The notes beneath the pieces are model-generated. The model ran no database searches, was not told the origin of the DNA, and saw only the letters and a program-made list of their open reading frames with translations. Shown in pieces: positions 23,040-38,360 of a stretch of 42,858 nt of DNA. Position 1 is the stretch's first letter. Every line of letters begins with the position of its first letter. Source of the DNA: Fibrobacter succinogenes (GTDB taxonomy: Bacteria; Fibrobacterota; Fibrobacteria; Fibrobacterales; Fibrobacteraceae); NCBI GenBank assembly GCA_902762795.1, contig CACWPM010000036.1, positions 1-42,858 on the forward strand, given 5' to 3'. The position numbers and the translations under genes were made by a program.

Positions 23040-24296
23040 TTATTTCAAAGCAAGACGCGCTGCGCATTCACGGGCATTACGGAGAATTTCTTCTTCACCA
23101 TCGATGTGACGGCCGCGCATCACGAACTTGCCGTTACACATAACAGAATCAATGACACTTGAATTTGCAGAATAGACCCAGTTGCTATAGACGTTATAAC
23201 ATGGTACCATGCGTTCGTTGTTCAAGTCTATCAGCAAACAATCCGCGAGATAGCATTCTGCAATTCGACCAGCCTTAAGGCCGAAGAAATTCGCCACATT
23301 GCAAGTCGCCATATCAAGAGCCTCGTGAGCCGGGAGCGTTTCGGCCGTTCCGAGATACTTTGCCAAAAGCGCCACCGTTTTCATTTCTTCTTGCATGTCG
23401 AGGTTGTTGTTCGATGAAGCTCCATCTGTTCCGAGTCCTATTTTTAAGCCGTCCTTGAGCATTTCGGCAATCTGAGGAATGCCGCTATTCAACTTCATGT
23501 TGGAGCATGGATTCAAAATCGCCGTAGCACCCGCTTCAGCAAAAATCTTGCGATCAGATGCCGTGAAATGCGTACAATGCGCCGCCGAGAAATTCGAATT
23601 TAATCCACCTAGACGCTTCCAGAATTCCACGGGCGTACATTTGTACTGAACCTCGCAATTCTTGACTTCAACTGTCGTTTCGGACAAATGCGTATGAATC
23701 TTATAATTCTCGGAATGAGCGAGTTCTATAAGCTCAGCCGTTTTTTCCTCCCCCACCGTGTAAATAGCATGAGGCATCACCACGAGCTGCACACGTTCCG
23801 TTTCGCCCGTGTGATTCTTCAAAAAATCAACATTCGCGGCCCAAGCTTCTGGAGACATCAACGATTCCGCAAACGTTACGCCAATCGCCGCACGGATTCC
23901 CATCTCTTCGACCACGCGCATCGTCTGTTCTCGATGCCAGTACATGTCCGCAAAGAAAACTGTACCCGACTTGATCATTTCAAGAATTGCAAGGCGGCTA
24001 CCGACGGCAATATCTTCAGGCGTCAGTTTCGCTTCAGTCGGCCAAATGTATTCCGAAAGCCACTTGTAAAGTTCCATGTCATCAGCAAATCCACGCAACA
24101 AGCTCATTGCCGCATGCGTATGACCGTTATAGAACGCGGGCATAATTGCAAAATGCGAACAATCGACAATTTCAGCGCCTTCGTAATCGACGGGTTCCAG
24201 CGGCGTGCGAACTTTTTCAAAGAGATTACCGGCAATCAAGATGTCGCGCTTTGCGCCATCAAAGAAAACATTTTTTAATACAGTTTTTTTATTCAT
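23040..24296 (-). CDS. Amidohydrolase of the SAH/MTA deaminase-like group
   Basis: Start chosen at ATG 24296, six bases after GAGG; another ATG lies two codons upstream without such spacing. The protein is about 418 residues. Metal-site motifs of the cytosine deaminase-like amidohydrolases are intact: HTHAAMSLLRGFADD, the HTHLSET motif, AHCTHFT and the final LGTDGASSNNNLDMQEE. Closest in style are the S-adenosylhomocysteine/5'-methylthioadenosine deaminases (MtaD) and related chlorohydrolases, which deaminate purine nucleoside derivatives. The exact substrate is not determinable here. Confidence 0.88.
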   Translation of the reverse strand: MNKKTVLKNVFFDGAKRDILIAGNLFEKVRTPLEPVDYEGAEIVDCSHFAIMPAFYNGHTHAAMSLLRGFADDMELYKWLSEYIWPTEAKLTPEDIAVGSRLAILEMIKSGTVFFADMYWHREQTMRVVEEMGIRAAIGVTFAESLMSPEAWAANVDFLKNHTGETERVQLVVMPHAIYTVGEEKTAELIELAHSENYKIHTHLSETTVEVKNCEVQYKCTPVEFWKRLGGLNSNFSAAHCTHFTASDRKIFAEAGATAILNPCSNMKLNSGIPQIAEMLKDGLKIGLGTDGASSNNNLDMQEEMKTVALLAKYLGTAETLPAHEALDMATCNVANFFGLKAGRIAECYLADCLLIDLNNERMVPCYNVYSNWVYSANSSVIDSVMCNGKFVMRGRHIDGEEEILRNARECAARLALK

Positions 24297-24302
24297 CGTC
24301 AT

Positions 24303-24625
24303 CCTCGAAGCGTAGGGACAACCTCAAAAAGCGAGTGTTGCAGCCATGCCTGCATGGATATAACCGAGCCTAAGAGGTTGGGGCTTGCCCCATTCACACC
24401 ATAATATAGACATTTATGGATTCTCCTTACGGAGAATGACATTGTTCGCTTAACGTTCTTCTAAAAGTTGCTTTACCGAACGAGCAAATTCTTGCAAGCT
24501 CGGGTCTCGCGCGCCATGATAAGACCGCACGAGCATTCCGCAATCATTAAACTTTATCAGGCTCGTGCTCTCGCCGACACGACTCGTTAATACGTGTCGC
24601 TTTCGACTCACGGCCCGATGGGCGC
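24303..24625. other. Spacer with palindromes and a duplicated ligase gene end
   Basis: It contains the perfect hairpin ATTCTCC-TTAC-GGAGAAT (24420-24437), a GCACGAGC/GCTCGTGC pair (from 24518) and a CGACACG/CGTGTCG pair. A copy of the 3' end of the downstream ligase gene lies at 24450-24516 and is listed separately. No intact gene is seen. Confidence 0.6.
24450..24516 (-). pseudogene. Duplicated 3' end of the MurC-like gene
   Basis: The minus strand encodes GARDPSLQEFARSVKQLLEER and a stop, nearly the same as the ligase C-terminus GARDPSLQAFALSVKKLLEER at 24626. About 65 bases are copied with scattered changes, 176 bases apart; the first 20 bases from the stop are identical. Upstream of the copy there is no ligase sequence, so it is a remnant and not a functional gene. 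Confidence 0.75.
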
Positions 24626-30404: not shown

Positions 30405-30433
30405 ATTCGAACCAATCGGATGAGGATTGAAGA

Positions 30434-31697
30434 ATGCAGGTTGAATGGGAAAGATGCTTGAACTACCTCCATGGAATGCTGTCGGATACGGTATTCAAGA
30501 CATATTTTGCACAGACCAAGCTCGTAAGCCAATAAAGACCTTATCCGTCTCGCCTGGAAAGACGTTTCGCATGACGAAGCTCCTGTAGAATTTGAATTCC
30601 AGCCGCAAGACGCCTACCAACCACAAGTTAGCGCCACAGAAAATTCTTTTCGCGAATTCATCAAGCCGAGCGTTCCGCTTTCGGGCAGTTTCCGTTTCGA
30701 AAACTTCGTCCCCGGAGACAAGGCACAGCTTGCATTCAACGCCGCTCTCGCCGTTGCAAGAAATCCTGATGGAACGCAGTATAACCCGCTATTTATTTAT
30801 GGGTCTTCAGGTCTTGGCAAGACGCACTTGCTCCAGTCCATCGGCAACTACATTCTCGAAGAAGATCCGACCAAGCGCGTCATTTACCTCACGTCCGAAG
30901 ACTTCTCGCAGCAGTACATGAAGTGCCTGCAAGAAAAGCGCATCACGGAAATGTCCGACTTCTACCGCAACGAAGTGGATATTCTCTTGATCGACGACAT
31001 CCAGAACTGGACAGGCAAGTACGAAACGCAAAACGAATTTTTCTTGATATTCAACGCACTGCACCAGGCAGGCAAGCAGATCGTGCTTACATCTGACGCC
31101 CCTGCCGCCGAAGTGAAAAACCTCTCCGACCGCCTCGTGAGCCGCTTTTCCTGGGGCCTTACCGTCGATATCCAGCCGCCTGACGTCGAGACGCGCGAAG
31201 CCATCCTTCACAAGAAGGCCGAAGAACGCCACCTCGAAATTAGCGACGAAGTCATCCGTTACCTTGCTGAAAATATTGCTAGCAACGTACGTTGTCTCGA
31301 AAGCGCCATCATCAAGCTCACATTGCAGTCGAGCCTCATGAGCCACGACATCGACATGAACATCGCTCAGAAAGTCGTCACCGAAATCGCACCGACGCTC
31401 CGCCGCCGCGTAAGCCTTGACGCCGTGCTCCATGCCGTATCGCAACACTACGAAGTTCCCGAGACCAAGCTCATCGAACCGGGCCGCGGCACCAAGGAAA
31501 TCTCGAAGGCCCGCCAGGTAGCCATGTTCCTGATGCGCGAGCTCTCCCCCATCAGCCTGCAGAGCATCGGTTCCCGTTTTGGCGGCAAGGATCACTCCAC
31601 CGTCGTGCACGCCATCAAGAGCGTCAAGAAAGAAATGGAAACCGACCCGAGCTTCGCACGCTTGATCGAAAGCTTGAAAAACACCATTCACGACTAA
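30434..31697 (+). pseudogene. dnaA: DnaA replication initiator, reading frame broken in domain I
   Basis: ATG 30434 (after GAGG) starts MQVEWERCLNYLHGMLSDT and continues to a stop at 30533. The remainder, ANKDLIRLAWKDVSHDEAP onward, is in the +1 frame from 30528 to 31697: linker, AAA+ domain with SGLGKTHLL, Walker B DILLIDDIQNW, and the DNA-binding domain (RQVAMFLMRELSP, GGKDHSTVVHA). Compared with other DnaA proteins about 24 residues of domain I are absent at the join. No ATG or GTG occurs in the second frame before TTG 30828, which lies inside the ATP site. Either a real deletion with frameshift or an assembly/sequencing error. Confidence 0.85.
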
Positions 31698-31827
31698 TTT
31701 GTATATTTGACGAACCCATCGACGACCCGGAAAAACATTCCGACAGCCGCCAGACGAGAACGGAAGCATTCACGCAGAATGAACCAGTGAAGAGCCCCGG
31801 CCTAAAAAGGCTAAAATAGGCAGAACG

Positions 31828-32523
31828 ATGGACATCAAGATTCTACAGCAGCCCGACGACGTAACGTGCGGGCCGACCAGCTTACAGGCGGTCTACAACC
31901 ACCTCGGCTACAAGATTTCTCTAAAGCAACTGATTTCTGAAATTGAATTTTTGGAAGAGGGAGGAACGCTTGGCGTGTTCCTCGGTATCGACGCTCTCAA
32001 GCGCGGATTCAAGGCGACCATACATTCATACAACCTCACGCTCCTCGACCCCACCTGGAGTTCGCTTTCAATGCAGGAACTCCGCGCAAAGTTGGAACTT
32101 TTGCACAAGGCTAAACACGCGCCCAAACTCCGCAAGGCCATAGAGGCGTACATCCGCTTTATCGATTTGGGCGGCAAGGTCGCTTTTGAAGACCTGCGCG
32201 CGGCGACATTTGAAAAATACTTCAAGAAAGGAGTTCCCGTTCTTTGTGGGCTTTCGGCCACATATCTGTACCGCAGCATGCGCGAGTTCACCGGAAAGGA
32301 CGACCGCTCCGTATTCGACGACATCCACGGCGAACCTATGGGGCACTTCGTGGTCGTTTACGGCATCGACAACAAGAAACAGTTCATGGTCGCTGACCCC
32401 GACGGCACCAATCCGCTCCATAAGAAACCCTACTACAAGGTCGACAAGTTCCGATTAATCCACAGCATATTGCTCGGCGTAATGACCTACGACGGGAACG
32501 TGCTTGTGATAGAAAAGAAATAA
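31828..32523 (+). CDS. C39-like cysteine peptidase of an amidoligase cassette
   Basis: A 231-residue soluble protein without signal peptide. The catalytic Cys14 is in QQPDDVTCGPTSL, the His in PMGHFVVVYGI and the Asp in FMVADPDG, the order of papain-like C39 peptidases. Between them is a helical insert of about 60 residues. Cytosolic C39-like proteins of this kind are found next to RimK-type ATP-grasp ligases, where they are thought to hydrolyse or trim the ligase product. Here the next two genes are exactly such ligases. The substrate is unknown. No export domain or transporter fusion is present, so it is not a bacteriocin exporter. Confidence 0.83.
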   Translation: MDIKILQQPDDVTCGPTSLQAVYNHLGYKISLKQLISEIEFLEEGGTLGVFLGIDALKRGFKATIHSYNLTLLDPTWSSLSMQELRAKLELLHKAKHAPKLRKAIEAYIRFIDLGGKVAFEDLRAATFEKYFKKGVPVLCGLSATYLYRSMREFTGKDDRSVFDDIHGEPMGHFVVVYGIDNKKQFMVADPDGTNPLHKKPYYKVDKFRLIHSILLGVMTYDGNVLVIEKK

Positions 32524-32550
32524 ATAGAAAACCAGTAAAGAAAAGCCCTG

Positions 32551-32584
32551 AATCCTTCCCCCTACGGGGTCAGGATGACGGGAG
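32551..32584. repeat. Dispersed repeat supplying a ribosome binding site
   Basis: AATCCTTCC...GGTCAGGATGACG with an inner CCCC-TA-CGGGG hairpin; its end runs into GGGAG, 9 bases before the ATG of the ATP-grasp gene. Confidence 0.6.
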
Positions 32585-32593
32585 CAAAGAATC

Positions 32594-34099
32594 ATGAAGA
32601 AACTTATAGTAGTAAACAATCCAAAAAATTGGAAGCTCCACGTTCCGGGAATAGATATCGTTTCGGCACAGGACTACCTGATTTCGAGCAAGTACACGAA
32701 TGAACGTAACCTGCGCGTATTCAACCTCTGTCGCGATTACAGCTACCAGAGCAAGGGTTACTACGTGTCGCTTCTGGCCGAGGCCCGCGGGCACAAGGTT
32801 ATCCCGGGCGTCAAGAACATGCGCGACTTCAAGGCTCCGGCAGTCATCAAGCACATCTCTGACGAAATCGATAATCTTATCCAAAAAAGTTTACATAAAC
32901 TAACAGGCTCCGAATTCGTACTTTCCATTTACTTTGGGCAAAACGTGAGTCCGCAATATTTGGAACTTTCGCAGGAACTCTACCGTTTGTTCCAGGCACC
33001 GCTGCTGCGCGCGAAATTCGTGTTCAAGCAGAAGTGGTTTATCCAAAGCATTCGCCCGATCTGCGTTGACGAAATTCCCGAATCGCACATGGAATTTGTC
33101 GATAAATTTGCGCAGGAATACTTCGAGAAGAGCCGCTATGCCTCCAGCAAGGAAGAGGATTACCTGTACGACCTCGCCATTCTCACGAACCCCGACGAAG
33201 TGGAGCCGCCGAGCAATGCCGTAGCCATACAGCACTTCGTAAAAGCGGCAGAAGACACGGGATTCCGCGTGGAGATGATTACCCGCAAGGACTACCCACG
33301 TGTGGGCGAATTCGACGCGCTGTTTATCCGCGAGACGACAAACGTAAACCACTACACCTACAGTTTTGCACGCCGCGCTCAGTCGCTGGGAATAGCGGTC
33401 ATCGATGACCCGGACAGCATCCTTCGCTGTTCAAACAAAGTTTATCTGCAGGAACTCATGCAGGCGGCCAAAATCCATTCGCCGAAGACAATTATCGCGC
33501 ACGCCGAAAACCGACACACGCTCGCAAAAGAAATCGGGTTCCCGATGGTCATCAAGTCGCCGGATTCGAGCTTTTCGATGGGCGTGAAAAAGGCGACCAA
33601 CAAAGAGGAACTCGAACAAATTCTAGACGAGATGTTCGAGCACAGCGACCTGCTGATTGCCCAGGAATTCACCCCGACGGAATTCGACTGGCGCGTGGGC
33701 GTACTCGACGGCAAGCCGCTTTACGCCTGCAAGTACCACATGGCGAAGGGCCACTGGCAAATCTACAACTGGGAAAGCGACGACAAGAAGAGCGAAGCTT
33801 TTTCGGGCAAATGCGAATGCATTCCCATCGAGATGGTGCCGCACGGAATCGTGAAGACGGCGCTCCGCATCTGCAGCCTCATCGGCAACGGGCTTTACGG
33901 CGTAGATTTGAAGGAATGGCACGGGCACCCGATTGTCATCGAAGTGAACGACAACCCGAGTATCGATGCGGGCATCGAAGATGGAGTCGGCAAGAGCAAG
34001 GTTTACCTCGCCATCATGAGGTCGCTGCGCCACCGCATCGAAGACCGCATGAACGCCGCCCAGCATAAACTGCAAATGCACGAGAGGGAATGGTTTTAA
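32594..34099 (+). CDS. RimK-type ATP-grasp ligase with RLAN N-terminal domain
   Basis: A 501-residue protein. Residues 1-190 match the RLAN domain (RimK-like ATP-grasp N-terminal: MKKLIVVNNPKNWKL, VFNLCRDYSYQSKGYYVSLLAEARGHKVIPG). The rest is an ATP-grasp ligase: KVYLQELMQAAKIHSPKTII, FPMVIKSPDSSFSMGVKKA (ATP-binding Lys and small Gly/Ser loop), LIAQEFTPTEFDWRVGVLDGKPLYACKY and the metal site VIEVNDNPSIDAG. Such enzymes join a carboxylate, activated as acyl phosphate, to an amino group. Family knowledge places RLAN proteins in predicted peptide or metabolite synthesis operons; the product is not known. The gene lies 70 bases after the C39-like gene and its stop touches a heptamer array. Confidence 0.9.
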   Translation: MKKLIVVNNPKNWKLHVPGIDIVSAQDYLISSKYTNERNLRVFNLCRDYSYQSKGYYVSLLAEARGHKVIPGVKNMRDFKAPAVIKHISDEIDNLIQKSLHKLTGSEFVLSIYFGQNVSPQYLELSQELYRLFQAPLLRAKFVFKQKWFIQSIRPICVDEIPESHMEFVDKFAQEYFEKSRYASSKEEDYLYDLAILTNPDEVEPPSNAVAIQHFVKAAEDTGFRVEMITRKDYPRVGEFDALFIRETTNVNHYTYSFARRAQSLGIAVIDDPDSILRCSNKVYLQELMQAAKIHSPKTIIAHAENRHTLAKEIGFPMVIKSPDSSFSMGVKKATNKEELEQILDEMFEHSDLLIAQEFTPTEFDWRVGVLDGKPLYACKYHMAKGHWQIYNWESDDKKSEAFSGKCECIPIEMVPHGIVKTALRICSLIGNGLYGVDLKEWHGHPIVIEVNDNPSIDAGIEDGVGKSKVYLAIMRSLRHRIEDRMNAAQHKLQMHEREWF

Positions 34100-34132
34100 C
34101 AGGTTACAGGTAATAGGTGTTAGGTATTAGGT
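34098..34132. repeat. Heptamer array after the ATP-grasp gene
   Basis: Five 7-base units of the type AATAGGT and GTTAGGT, starting at the stop codon. The matching inverted array is at 34181-34222. Confidence 0.8.
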
Positions 34133-34139
34133 TTTCTAT

Positions 34140-34178
34140 TGCGGCTTCGCCGCCCTATATATGAACGCACACAGTGCG
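34140..34178. repeat. Two perfect hairpins between the heptamer arrays
   Basis: GCGGC-TTC-GCCGC (34141-34153) and GCAC-ACA-GTGC (34167-34177) lie between the two arrays. Confidence 0.7.
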
Positions 34179-34180
34179 CG

Positions 34181-34222
34181 TTACAACCTATAACATACAA
34201 CCTATAACCTAACCCCTAAATA
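34181..34222. repeat. Heptamer array before the GCS2-like gene
   Basis: Six 7-base units of the type CTATAAC and CTAACCC, ending two bases before the ATG at 34225. No Shine-Dalgarno sequence is left in this leader. Confidence 0.8.
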
Positions 34223-34224
34223 TT

Positions 34225-35457
34225 ATGGCAAATTATAAATTGTGGCAAAAATACGGCATCGAGATGGAGTACATGATTGTGGATCGCGACTCCCTGAATG
34301 TGCTCCCCCGCGCCGATGTACCGCTTGGAAAAAATGAAAAGGGCGAACAGCTTTCGGACGTGGAACACGGCCCTATTGGACTTTCGAACGAACTCGTAAG
34401 CCATGTGCTGGAATTCAAGTGCGCTGAACCCGTCGAAAACTTCCACCATCTGGGAAAGACATTCCACAAGGAAATCCTGAAGGCGAACGAATCGCTCAAG
34501 AGCATCAACGCGATGCTTTTACCCACGGCGGCACACCCCTTCATGGACCCCGCCGAAATGAAGCTCTGGCCCTACGACTGCCTCGACATCTACGAGACTT
34601 ACGACCGCATATTCAACTGCAAGGGACACGGCTGGGCAAACCTGCAATCCACCCACATCAACCTTTCGTTCCACGGCGACGAGGAATTCGGGAAGTTGCA
34701 TGCTGCCATCCGCGCGCTTTTGCCGCTAATCCCTGCAGTAGCAGCCTCGAGCCCGTTTTTGGACAGCAAGTACTGCGGATTCCTGGACGGACGCATCGAG
34801 ACCTACCGCCACAACCAGGAGAAGATTCCGAGCATTACCGGCAAGGTCATCCCCGAAGCGGTGTTTACCTACAAGGATTACGAGGAGCAGATTTTCAACC
34901 GCGTGAAGGCGGACATCGCGCCATACGACCCGGAACATTTGCTCAACCATTTCTTCTTGAACAGCCGTGGAGCCATAGCCCGCTTCGACCGAGGAGCCGT
35001 GGAAATTCGCCTGGTCGACATACAGGAATGCCCCGATGCAGACATCGCGATTGCCGAATGGGAAGTCGCCGTGTTGAAGGGCCTTGCAGAAGGCGTTTTC
35101 GCAAGCGAAGCTGAAATCCGCGTGCTCGATACGGACGCTCTCGCCAAGATTTTGCTAGACACAACTCACGCCGCCGAGAAGACGGTAATTAGCGACCGCG
35201 ACTACCTGAAAATCTGGGGTATTGACGCTAGCGAAATCACCGCCGGAGAGCTTATCCAAAAAATCACAGACAGGGTAAAAAACAAAATTTCCTCGCACTC
35301 TCAAGCACTGCTCACCAGCATGTTCAAGCGCGGGACCCTCGCCAGCGCCCTCGTCAAGGCCGTCGGCGCCGACCCCGACCGAGACGATTTCGTGTATGAA
35401 TACGGCCGTCTCGCCCACTGCCTCGCAGAGAATAAATTGTACGGAGTGGAAGAGTAA
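34225..35457 (+). CDS. GCS2-type carboxylate-amine ligase
   Basis: A 410-residue member of the glutamate-cysteine ligase family 2 (YbdK-like) fold within the glutamine synthetase superfamily. It opens with YKLWQKYGIEMEYMIVD, whose acidic residues bind metal-ATP, and has NELVSHVLEFKCAEP, the THINLSFHGDEE block and a conserved Arg/Glu segment (GAIARFDRGAVEIRLVDIQECP). Enzymes of this family form an amide between a gamma- or alpha-carboxylate and an amine. It is the third gene of the C39 protease/ATP-grasp/GCS2 cassette, so probably acts on the same product. It does not have the length of classical GshA, and glutathione synthesis is not implied. Confidence 0.87.
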   Translation: MANYKLWQKYGIEMEYMIVDRDSLNVLPRADVPLGKNEKGEQLSDVEHGPIGLSNELVSHVLEFKCAEPVENFHHLGKTFHKEILKANESLKSINAMLLPTAAHPFMDPAEMKLWPYDCLDIYETYDRIFNCKGHGWANLQSTHINLSFHGDEEFGKLHAAIRALLPLIPAVAASSPFLDSKYCGFLDGRIETYRHNQEKIPSITGKVIPEAVFTYKDYEEQIFNRVKADIAPYDPEHLLNHFFLNSRGAIARFDRGAVEIRLVDIQECPDADIAIAEWEVAVLKGLAEGVFASEAEIRVLDTDALAKILLDTTHAAEKTVISDRDYLKIWGIDASEITAGELIQKITDRVKNKISSHSQALLTSMFKRGTLASALVKAVGADPDRDDFVYEYGRLAHCLAENKLYGVEE

Positions 35458-35500
35458 AAAGAGGCAGTCGAGAAAAGCGAAAAAATTTTCAAGTATAAAC

Positions 35501-36265
35501 TCACATTCGAACAATTGTAACGGCGGCGCCGATATGTTTGCCGTTCAGAGTGATATCGTCATCGTCTTGTTCACGGTTAGCATCAACACGGAACCCATCG
35601 ACCTTATCTGTACCACCGGCAAAGCCACCCGCCGCCTTTATAGAAAAGCCCACCCAAAAGCGTTCAGAAATCTTCCAGAGTTTCCCAATTTCAAACTCGA
35701 CTAAAGTTTCTGTATCCCCATAATTCATCCCATATTTGTTCCAAGCTTTCTTATTGCCAAATAGTGGAACACCTTTTAATGTAGCACCAATAAAAACTCC
35801 ATTAAATGGATTCTGTTCGTTTATAATGGGATACCACTTGAGGCCAAATCCCCAATAAGCTCTAAACCTTATATCACTCTCGGAAAATTCTTCACTATCG
35901 TGCGAATAAATCTTGTAGCGATATTCCCCGGCAGACCAAAAACAGCCAAAGCTCAAATACAAGGCAACCCTTCTTGCAAAACCAATTCCAATTTTAGAAT
36001 CAAGCAGAGGGCCGCCCCCCTCAAAAGAATAGATATCGTAATAAAGGTCCTTGTCATAAACCATTTCATCACGTTCTAAGTCATGATAATAGTTTGTCTT
36101 TGATTTGGTCTTGTAATCCATTACCGAATACATTCCACCAACGGAAAGTTCAAAATACGGATGAAGAATTTGGAGGAATTTTCGGTCCAGCGGAGAAAGT
36201 TCAAACAAACCCGCCACAGAATACGCCACTAAGCAAAAAATCAGTACGGCAACGCGCTTCATCAC
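35501..36265 (-). CDS. Probable outer-membrane beta-barrel protein
   Basis: A 254-residue exported protein: signal peptide MMKRVAVLIFCLVAYSVAG, then strands of a barrel (YFELSVGGMYSVMDY, KIGIGFARRVALYLSFGCFWS, FRAYWGFGLKWYPI, GVFIGATLKGVPLFG, ETLVEFEIGKLWKI, FWVGFSIKAAGGFAGG) and a terminal GAAVTIVRM. I recognise no named family. Its ATG overlaps the stop of the lipoprotein gene upstream by four bases (ATGA), so the two are translationally coupled. It converges on the GCS2 gene, with 43 bases between. Confidence 0.75.
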   Translation of the reverse strand: MMKRVAVLIFCLVAYSVAGLFELSPLDRKFLQILHPYFELSVGGMYSVMDYKTKSKTNYYHDLERDEMVYDKDLYYDIYSFEGGGPLLDSKIGIGFARRVALYLSFGCFWSAGEYRYKIYSHDSEEFSESDIRFRAYWGFGLKWYPIINEQNPFNGVFIGATLKGVPLFGNKKAWNKYGMNYGDTETLVEFEIGKLWKISERFWVGFSIKAAGGFAGGTDKVDGFRVDANREQDDDDITLNGKHIGAAVTIVRM

Positions 36266-36774
36266 TCCTCCTTGACATTGAGGACGGCATAGTTCACGAA
36301 CTTACCGCAAGCAGTATCTTCAGGAGCAAGGAAAGTCTCAAGCGAATAATCGCCGCTGACCTTTCTTTCGTCAAATTCAGCTATGTAAAATTTTACTTCA
36401 TCCGCTAATCCATTGGAATCAGTCTTTGTTTTCGCTATGTATGTGGGTAAAGCGACCTTTTTATCCCCGCAATAAAAACTGATAGCAATAGTTAAATCCC
36501 AATTTTTACCGGCATGTTCGTCACCTTCGCAATAATTCGCGAAAAAGAAAGTGGCTTCCCCACCATTTTCAGAGGAACGACTGTATTCGGAAACAATCAG
36601 CGAATCATTGCTGTAGACTCGCATTTCCAACGAATCCACGCCAGCCGGCTTAAGTGCTTTGACATACCCCGGATTGTAAACAAAATCCATGGGGCAACAA
36701 TCCATACAGCAACAACAAAGCCACACATAAGCAAGCAGTGCAAAAGTTGTGAATTTATTTCTGCACGGTTTCAT
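36262..36774 (-). CDS. Cys-rich lipoprotein of unknown function
   Basis: Start moved to ATG 36774, which has a strong GAGGAGAAT ribosome binding site; an upstream in-frame start at 36849 has none. The 170-residue protein has a signal peptide followed by an unusual run of Cys (LCCCCMDCCPMD) around the likely lipobox. The mature part is beta-rich (SLEMRVYSNDSLIVSEYS, WDLTIAISFYCGDKKVALPTYIAK, EVKFYIAEFDERKVSGDYSLET). No family recognised. It is coupled with the barrel gene, suggesting a surface complex. Confidence 0.75.
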   Translation of the reverse strand: MKPCRNKFTTFALLAYVWLCCCCMDCCPMDFVYNPGYVKALKPAGVDSLEMRVYSNDSLIVSEYSRSSENGGEATFFFANYCEGDEHAGKNWDLTIAISFYCGDKKVALPTYIAKTKTDSNGLADEVKFYIAEFDERKVSGDYSLETFLAPEDTACGKFVNYAVLNVKEE

Positions 36775-36849
36775 ATTCTCCTCAACCCAAACATTCTTGT
36801 ATCCAATGGATACGCTCTTGATAATATAATTTATTTTCACAAATTTCAA

Positions 36850-36884
36850 TAAAAAAAAAGAAAAACCTCGAGACTTACCCGAGG
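36850..36884 (-). terminator. Minus-strand terminator
   Basis: CCTCG pairs with CGAGG and the minus strand then has TTTTTCTTTTTTTTT. It would stop transcripts coming from ddh before the lipoprotein gene. Confidence 0.7.
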
Positions 36885-36927
36885 CGATTTACATTTTGCA
36901 TAGACATCGAACAGAATCGATTGTTTC

Positions 36928-36963
36928 AGGGCTATCGCCCTTCCTACTGTCTACTGCCTACTA
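36928..36963. repeat. Hairpin and short heptamer array
   Basis: GGGC-TATC-GCCC (36929-36940) is followed by three 7-base units of the type TCTACTG and CCTACTA (36943-36963). Confidence 0.65.
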
Positions 36964-36987
36964 TATTACAAGCTGTGAGCCGTAGAC

Positions 36988-37326
36988 GACTCGTATCAAC
37001 GAGTCGCCGAAGGGCGACCTTTGACCACTTGGCGCTTTAGCGCCTACGTGGGCATGGCGACCTTTAGGTGGGAGCGAGGCGAAGACGAAGGTTCTATCTT
37101 ACGATAGAGCCGAGCGGTCTCAGTGAGCAAAAAGCCCCTGTTATTGCGACTGCGTCGCATAAACCGGCGCCTCAACAATAGAAACAAGTAAACTTGTTTC
37201 TGCTGTACTCGGCTTAGGTTTATTTAAACAGGGGCGGTTGACGCCTACGGCGTCCGCGGCTTCACTCGGTCATGAAATTATGCAGGCATAATTTCGCGAC
37301 TCTCGTTTTGCACGCTTTTGCGAGAG
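36988..37326. repeat. Dense array of perfect hairpins downstream of ddh
   Basis: At least nine short palindromes follow each other with little between: GACTCGT/ACGAGTC (36988-37005), GTCGCC/GGCGAC (37003-37018), GGCGCT/AGCGCC (37031-37044), GGTTCTATC/GATAGAGCC (37090-37111), TGCGAC/GTCGCA (37145-37159), GAAACAAGT/ACTTGTTTC (37181-37200), GTTTA/TAAAC (37218-37229), GACGCC/GGCGTC (37240-37254), GAAATTATGC/GCATAATTTC (37274-37295), and CTCTCG/CGAGAG (37300-37326). GCCCCTGTT (37134) and AACAGGGGC (37227) enclose part of the set. No gene is seen in 36775-37376. Confidence 0.8.
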
Positions 37327-37376
37327 CGAGGGCCAGCCCTGAACTTGACATTCAGAATCTAGCCCGAGCAGTCTCA

Positions 37377-38360
37377 TTACAGGCAATGAGCTCGGAGGTC
37401 TTCGTCGCTCAGAGTGCTGAGATATGCAGGCGGCACATCGAGCACAGTCTTACAACCGGTCTCTCCGTTAGCCTTCATGCGGAGAGCGGCGCGGGCGTAA
37501 GCCACGAGAACGCTCGTCGTGAATTCCGGGTTGGAATCGAGCTTGAGGCTGTATTCGATCACGTGAGTGTGTTCCTTGTTCATGCCTGTCTTGCCGGTAC
37601 GGATCACGAAACCACCGTGAGCGAGCCCGCTGTGGTTCTTGTTGAATTCTTCTTCGCTGATAAAGTTGACCGTGGTGTCGTATTCGTCGAAGTAGTTCGG
37701 CATCGTCTTGATGGCGTTTTCGATGTAAGCCTTGTCGGCACCTTCTTCTGCAACAACGTAAACAAGACGCGTGTGCTTCTGGCGAGTCGTGAGTTCCGGC
37801 ATAGAACCGCTACGCACGGCTTCGAGAGCGGATTCCACCGGGCAGGTGTACTGCTTAGCGTTCTTCACGCCCTTGATGCGGCGGACAGCATCGCTGTGGC
37901 CCTGGGAAACACCCTTGCCCCAGAACGTGTAGTCCTTGCCTTCCGGGAGGATAGACTGTGCGTACACGCGGTTCAGGCTGAACATGCCCGGGTCCCAACC
38001 GACGGAGATCATGGCGATCTTGTTTGCACCCTTGGCAGCAGCGTCAACGGCAGCGAAGTGCTGCGGAATCTTGGCGTGCGTGTCGAAGGAGTCGATCACG
38101 TTGAACATGGAAGCGTACTTCGGGGTGAGCACCGGCAGGTCCGTAGCAGAGCCACCACAAATGATGAGCACGTCCACCTTGTCCTTCCAAGCTTCCATTT
38201 CGGAAACGTTCAAAACCGGAACGCCAGCCGTCTGGATCTTGACCGTCGACGGATCACGACGAGTGAAAACAGCGACGAGTTCCATATCCGGAGCCTGCTT
38301 CACGGCGCATTCCACACCACGACCGAGGTTCCCATAACCGAGAATAGCAATCTTTGCCAT
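37377..38360 (-). CDS. ddh: meso-Diaminopimelate dehydrogenase
   Basis: Ddh makes meso-diaminopimelate directly from tetrahydrodipicolinate, ammonia and NADPH, giving lysine and the peptidoglycan cross-linking residue. The 327-residue protein fits the family length and has the N-terminal Rossmann motif AILGYGNLGRGVE, VFTRRDPSTV, CGGSATDLPVLTPKYASMFNVIDSFDTHAKIPQH, SVGWDPGMFSLNRVY, WGKGVSQGHSDAVRRIKGV and the late LAHGGFVIRTG. AAGGAT precedes the ATG. It is flanked on both sides by repeat-rich spacers, suggesting an isolated gene. Confidence 0.96.
   Translation of the reverse strand: MAKIAILGYGNLGRGVECAVKQAPDMELVAVFTRRDPSTVKIQTAGVPVLNVSEMEAWKDKVDVLIICGGSATDLPVLTPKYASMFNVIDSFDTHAKIPQHFAAVDAAAKGANKIAMISVGWDPGMFSLNRVYAQSILPEGKDYTFWGKGVSQGHSDAVRRIKGVKNAKQYTCPVESALEAVRSGSMPELTTRQKHTRLVYVVAEEGADKAYIENAIKTMPNYFDEYDTTVNFISEEEFNKNHSGLAHGGFVIRTGKTGMNKEHTHVIEYSLKLDSNPEFTTSVLVAYARAALRMKANGETGCKTVLDVPPAYLSTLSDEDLRAHCL

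Follow-up and report, generated by a model that had tools for sequence, protein, structure and literature searches.

A conserved bacterial amidoligase gene set with an N-formylglutamate-amidohydrolase-like fourth member, examined from a Fibrobacter succinogenes locus

A 42,858-nucleotide stretch of Fibrobacter succinogenes DNA (contig CACWPM010000036.1 of assembly GCA_902762795.1; the whole stretch is called the window here) carries in a row the genes for a C39-like papain-fold thiol hydrolase, an RLAN-RimK-like ATP-grasp ligase and a GCS2-family ligase (Table 1), a cassette that recurs across bacterial phyla and is frequently joined by an N-formylglutamate-amidohydrolase-like enzyme (FGase). 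An earlier note, made from the sequence alone, had proposed these three open reading frames and identities, and both are upheld by Pfam matches above curated cut-offs: Peptidase_C39_2 (E 2e-10) and Peptidase_C39 (E 1e-8) for the first protein, RLAN (PF14401, 162 bits, E 1e-47) and RimK (PF08443, 42.7 bits, E 6e-11) for the second, and GCS2 (E 7e-18) for the third. No GNAT domain is among the Pfam matches of the C39 protein. Wide alignments of all four families, FGase included, have invariant catalytic residues: the four C39 residues listed in Table 1 in 57 of 57 sequences, K282, K321, R367, D438, E450 and N452 of the ATP-grasp protein in all 80, and E13, E15, E56, H60, E63, N139, N146 and R190 of the GCS2 protein in all 61. 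The motifs described in the note as intact are thus conserved well beyond this locus, and its term "cytosolic" is reasonable, as crude hydropathy gives no apparent signal peptide or membrane segment in the cassette proteins. GCS2 and RLAN are each present as a single copy in the source genome.

Table 1. Coordinates of the cassette genes and associated features (window positions unless a contig is named).
Feature	Location	Strand	Remarks
C39-like papain-fold thiol hydrolase, 231 aa	31828..32523	+	Pfam; invariant Q8, C14, H173, D190
RLAN-RimK-like ATP-grasp amide ligase, 501 aa	32594..34099	+	Pfam; invariant catalytic residues; fold nearest LysX/ArgX, RimK
GCS2-family (glutamate-cysteine-ligase-like) carboxylate-amine ligase, 410 aa	34225..35457	+	Pfam; invariant active-site residues
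Interval holding the putatively acquired cassette, between dnaA and DAP dehydrogenase	31698..37376	.	bounds are those of the interval, not of the acquired piece
C39 remnant, 94 aa	L150 (contig C53) 4130-4414	-	residues 33-180 deleted, catalytic His included; leader element retained
TATATTTG box, promoter-like (-7/-10 type), before leader element	31702..31709	+	consensus match only
C39 leader element (candidate), CATCGACGA-hairpin-CCGCCA	31717..31755	+	putative stem 31728-31732 with 31738-31742

An RLAN alignment searched against about 85,000 species genomes gave at least 581 confirmed relatives, of which we read the best 80 loci. C39 adjoins RLAN upstream in 62 of these 80 loci and GCS2 adjoins it in 69, with strand and gene order unchanged, and the three genes stand together in 58; the lack of co-conservation that would have refuted the earlier note is thus not seen. 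Among the best 80 of the relatives, the order C39-RLAN-GCS2 is seen again, its genes touching or overlapping, in over a dozen phyla, including Bacteroidota, Planctomycetota, Thermodesulfobacteriota, Nitrospirota, Spirochaetota, Verrucomicrobiota, Myxococcota, Omnitrophota, Uhrbacteria and Pseudomonadota. Between C39 and RLAN the median gap is 2 nt, between RLAN and GCS2 it is -4 nt, and a third junction has a median of -7.5 nt, leaving no space for the precursor-peptide gene that the note had likewise found missing. Across 41 related genomes, C39, RLAN and GCS2 occur in almost identical genome sets, and in 168 genomes of the Fibrobacter phylum, with RLAN in 94 and GCS2 in 93, the two are concordant in 165 (both in 92, neither in 73, RLAN only in 2, GCS2 only in 1), as judged by comparing the lists by hand and with relatedness left uncorrected. 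The sole genome with GCS2 only is 69% complete, with the gene at a contig edge. Pairwise divergence is correlated among the four families (r 0.75-0.86 for every pair; 0 of 1000 permutations as high), to which common descent contributes. Within Fibrobacter the members can lie apart and yet are kept as a set. Clustering of all neighbours at the 80 loci yielded no shared precursor, carrier, exporter, regulator, transporter or catabolic gene; for small peptides it covered families of at least 70 aa, with shorter or distant precursors outside its reach. RefSeq names for such genes are generic (RimK family protein, glutamate-cysteine ligase family protein, N-formylglutamate amidohydrolase).

In the same unbiased clustering one family, FGase, stood far above the rest, being present in 43 of the 80 loci and mostly directly 3' of GCS2. 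All four genes are found together in 42 loci and the trio without FGase in 16. While the amidoligase cassette recognized in the earlier note is real and strongly co-conserved, the three genes are not the full unit: the fourth member, a hydrolase, had been missed, and the window has the operon in a relocated form. Matches to PF05013 exceed the cut-off both for the FGase copy at locus L113 (82.5 bits) and for that of the source genome (55.9 bits), which lies outside the window on contig C53. In a set of 41 genomes, most of them picked for having no linked FGase, 20 carry the gene somewhere; FGase is therefore a frequent, non-universal partner. Its family consists of small-molecule amidohydrolases and includes the HutG-type N-formylglutamate amidohydrolases (PF05013; structure 2odf), with which it has conserved His, Glu and Arg residues in common; unlike those enzymes, this subgroup is coupled to the RLAN operon, and no histidine-utilization genes recur beside it at the 80 loci. 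The tight linkage of two hydrolases to the ligases, and the existence of C39-FGase as a locus of its own in one Fibrobacter clade, would fit a degradation or salvage module, with gamma-glutamyl or formyl-glutamyl compounds degraded by C39 and FGase and their parts put to new use by the ligases. However, no conserved transporter or catabolic gene lies alongside, and only C39 is a more constant member than the two ATP-using ligases; we consider such a module very unlikely.

Gammaproteobacteria, in which RLAN is present in 50 of 229 genomes, contain a second version of the system. Among 20 gammaproteobacterial loci, 16 pair RLAN with a GNAT-C39 type gene and lack both GCS2 and FGase, four have C39-RLAN-GCS2-FGase, and none has both. 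The fusion gene joins a GNAT domain to DUF3335/C39 in the examples scanned with Pfam, an arrangement of the papain-like domain that we take to be usual, though not obligatory, in the RLAN family. The two versions are split by a single change on the RLAN tree (Shimodaira-Hasegawa-like approximate likelihood ratio test, SH-aLRT, 99), the GNAT fusions belonging to an RLAN group of their own. The GNAT half resembles RimI, at 76 bits and below the cut-off of 86, and some GNAT loci adjoin an M14-type hydrolase (DUF2817 or M14) or acetylornithine deacetylase. This pattern suggests that the two pairs, GCS2 with FGase and GNAT with a deacylase, may play comparable parts, each placing an acyl group on an amine and taking it off again. 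A plasmid hit in Legionella is not taken as plasmid carriage, as the record looks chromosomal (dapF, fur, bamE).

The mutual replacement of GCS2 plus FGase by GNAT-C39, together with the hydrolases and deacetylase beside several GNAT loci, is also what an amine-protected amino-acid pathway linked to lysine, diaminopimelate (DAP) or arginine might look like, in which GCS2 or GNAT would block an amine, the ATP-grasp enzyme would ligate at the carboxylate, and FGase or an M14/M20 hydrolase would unblock the amine. Genes of lysine, DAP or arginine metabolism adjoin RLAN in several unrelated lineages: DAP dehydrogenase in Fibrobacter, an arg operon in Pontibacter, argE and argG in Gammaproteobacteria, lysA, dapA and argG in a Verrucomicrobium, and dapF in Legionella. 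These neighbours, which may stand there by chance, nevertheless vary by lineage and are lacking at most loci, and the pathway gives C39 no clear role; on balance it appears quite unlikely. Individual cases of lysine, DAP or arginine biosynthesis genes beside RLAN are loci L104, L225, L232, L233, L237, L243 and L246, the Pontibacter loci L070-L087, and positions 37377-38360 of the window.

Known enzymes do not account for the cassette. By the earlier note, a known product such as glutathione or a cofactor glutamylation would have refuted its reading; this is not borne out, with scores far below the NCBIfam cut-offs, and no cassette protein is assigned to a named enzyme by NCBIfam. The ATP-grasp protein reaches 72 bits against a cut-off of 143.4 for RimK family glutamate ligases (TIGR00768), 67 against 276 for LysX/ArgX (TIGR02144) and 28 against 299 for GshB; the GCS2 protein reaches at most 38 against 176 for GshA; and the score for F420 glutamate ligase is 28 against 300. 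A system for ribosomally synthesized and post-translationally modified peptides (RiPPs) of the graspetide type was rejected for want of a precursor gene or intergenic room, no small-peptide family of at least 70 aa being recurrent, and anti-phage defence was rejected since PADLOC models match none of the four proteins.

Structural models provide leads, not proof, as to function. In comparisons of AlphaFold models (predicted local distance difference test, pLDDT, 92 for C39 and 88 for RLAN-ATP-grasp), the ATP-grasp half comes nearest to LysX/ArgX (Z 28.0, 260 residues aligned, 2.0 Å), followed by RimK (Z 26-27), D-Ala ligases (about 23) and glutathione synthetase (22.9). The C39 model is about equally close to the primitive phytochelatin synthase Alr0975 (Z 15.2, 155 aligned, 2.6 Å), the pseudomurein endoisopeptidase PeiR (Z 15.2) and the C39 domains of PCAT1 and ComA (about 15). 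With LysX/ArgX of the LysW system and RimK the cassette enzyme has both the ATP-grasp fold and catalytic residues in common, whereas it falls below their curated cut-offs, bears an extra N-terminal RLAN domain and has no carrier or target gene nearby; no LysW-type carrier is among the recurrent neighbours of the 80 loci, although no search was aimed at LysW. The bacteriocin-exporter C39 peptidases have the same catalytic domain and Q/C/H/D residues, but the cassette C39 has no transporter fusion, about 90 extra residues and no leader-peptide gene. GCS2-type GshA, GshB and Alr0975 offer the same two ligase folds and a similar papain-like thiol enzyme; the cassette differs from that route in its divergent sequences, in the lack of PF05023 among its Pfam matches and in the addition of FGase.

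The nearness of the ATP-grasp fold to LysX/ArgX and RimK, along with the RimI-like GNAT half of the sister version, may be read as a cycle of protein or peptide tagging, in which the ATP-grasp enzyme, like RimK and LysX, would extend the C-terminus of some common cellular protein or carrier by amino acids, GCS2 would extend or cap the tag, and C39 and FGase would remove it. The fold shared by C39 with isopeptidase and peptide-processing domains is consistent with such a cycle, and an operon without a travelling target gene is expected if the target is universal. Against tagging, the substrates of FGase relatives are small molecules, the operon has no linked target or carrier, and the scores come nowhere near the cut-offs for RimK and LysX; we regard it as the main competitor, though a doubtful one.

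We prefer, over tagging, amine protection and salvage, a four-gene cytosolic non-ribosomal system for assembling and trimming a small peptide or conjugate of glutamyl type, and give this explanation a probability of roughly 45%. A set of two amide-forming and two amide-cleaving enzymes that lacks any gene for a carrier, exporter, regulator or precursor suggests a compound made and also turned over in the cytosol. The small-peptide explanation draws on the packed gene order, the correlated divergence, the co-presence of RLAN and GCS2 and the retention of the members as a set; on the C39 fold, whose ties include Alr0975 and its glutathione acyl-enzyme; on GCS2 and ATP-grasp as the two ligase folds of glutathione-type synthesis; and on the lack of a shared precursor or carrier gene, with FGase coming from a small-molecule amidohydrolase family. 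The substrates, step order and product that we infer are as follows. GCS2 would convert a glutamate-like carboxylate to an acyl phosphate and couple it to an amine; the RLAN ATP-grasp enzyme would add the next amino acid to a carboxylate, its RLAN half probably helping to choose the acceptor; C39 would form a thiol acyl-enzyme on the product, for cutting or transfer; and FGase would remove an N-acyl group of the formyl or glutamyl type, so that the compound is finished or recycled. The overall logic would be akin to that of glutathione and phytochelatin. Three observations weigh against this explanation: the C39 fold is equally near to protein-processing C39 domains and to the PeiR isopeptidase, the ATP-grasp half resembles LysX/ArgX and RimK, enzymes that work on the ends of proteins (Z 26-28), more closely than it does glutathione synthetase (Z 22.9), and about half of the tested genomes without a linked copy show no FGase, although many of them are incomplete.

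RLAN neighbourhoods with papain-like proteases were reportedly predicted by Iyer and colleagues to make or modify peptides, and the Pfam entry for RLAN presumably already notes GCS2 and M20 peptidases as neighbours. PMC10318531 cites Iyer et al. 2009 (Mol Biosyst 5:1636) for DUF3335-GNAT fusions, and PMC4431377 also cites that paper. The RLAN and GNAT-papain amidoligase neighbourhoods predicted there contain the same RLAN-RimK enzyme and a papain-like partner; here, by comparison, C39 is free of GNAT, the partnership with GCS2 is constant, and a fourth gene joins in, FGase, which is not known to have been described for those neighbourhoods. Our literature search found no paper describing the cassette and no experimental work on it, and as far as could be checked the four-gene version with FGase, the exclusive GNAT swap, the horizontal replacement and the leader element discussed below are undescribed. 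That over a dozen phyla keep this gene order, and that the catalytic residues do not vary, points to a gap in the picture of bacterial metabolism or protein modification, and a gene set kept together so widely probably makes or recycles something useful. FGase and the exchange between GCS2 plus FGase and GNAT-C39 narrow the likely chemistry to acylation of an amine, ligation and deacylation. The RLAN model has no match in 14 control genomes, E. coli among them, which makes E. coli a clean host for a product hunt.

The window copy looks horizontally acquired from another Fibrobacter clade, because its genes match clade 1, its flanks match clade 2, and sister genomes have an empty site. Several clade 1 genomes have the order dnaA - C39 - RLAN - GCS2 - FGase - DAP dehydrogenase, whereas clade 2 has two separate loci, C39-FGase and RLAN-GCS2. 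The window backbone is that of clade 2, with identities to genomes G001, G004 and G014 of 99-100% for dnaA and 93-94% for a squalene-synthase-like protein. The cassette is 93-96% (C39), 95-96% (RLAN) and 89-93% (GCS2) identical to clade 1, against about 80-82%, 77-82% and 58-66% to clade 2, and in the sister genomes G004 and G014 dnaA adjoins DAP dehydrogenase with no cassette between them. The FGase on contig C53, the sole FGase match in the source genome, is clade-2-like and adjoins the C39 remnant of Table 1; the flanks of the RLAN-GCS2 locus of G004 match three different contigs of the source genome, in which no second RLAN-GCS2 copy was found. On the simplest reading, a foreign trio entered, the native RLAN, GCS2 and C39 were lost, and the foreign FGase was lost or never acquired, so that each of the four genes is left in one intact copy. 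The window copy probably works with the genome's own FGase elsewhere. Assembly contamination (2.8%) is the alternative to this reading; that contig C53 is a contaminant is argued against by the presence of exactly one intact copy per gene. The adjacent dnaA (window positions 30433-31697) is frameshifted near 30532, where about 63 nt in relatives correspond to 1 nt (a net loss of 62 nt); a DNA search found no second dnaA in the source genome, and the frameshift is either real damage or an assembly error.

Upstream of C39, just 3' of a TATnTTT box, lies a candidate leader element, and a TAnnTTT-like box occupies the same position ahead of it in nearly all Fibrobacter loci compared. Across eight clade 1 loci the mean identity of the element is 96%, against 56% before and 64% after it in the flanks. 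Its core, TYGACGA...CCGCC, also precedes C39 in clade 2, including the C39 remnant; it was not seen ahead of RLAN or FGase in separate Fibrobacter loci, nor ahead of C39 in loci outside Fibrobacter. We propose it as a candidate new cis-regulatory element that is Fibrobacter-only among the loci compared. The 5-bp stem is present in six distinct clade 1 rows, one pair being changed on both sides, which is weak support; single-sequence folding was no better than that of shuffles (z between -1.0 and 1.5), and with a single two-sided change an RNA structure is not demonstrated. A known riboswitch was rejected in the absence of any Rfam match even at E 10, as was a coding leader peptide, since in the frames read the changes track the stem and not codons, and one of these frames has a stop in some relatives. 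The element may control the operon, and an RNA control element and a DNA operator fit equally well. If the leader sensed product or precursor, as riboswitch or operator, the whole might be a widespread write-and-erase system for a new class of non-ribosomal peptide metabolites, an extension that we consider unlikely.

The spacers between the cassette genes (32524-32593 and 34100-34224) hold extra repeat-like sequence, in contrast to the touching or overlapping genes of most other loci. Elsewhere in the window, an interspersed repeat of about 100 nt (24296-24397) has many scattered copies in related Fibrobacter genomes, with more than 15 in G004, and a shorter interspersed repeat lies at about 24567-24613.

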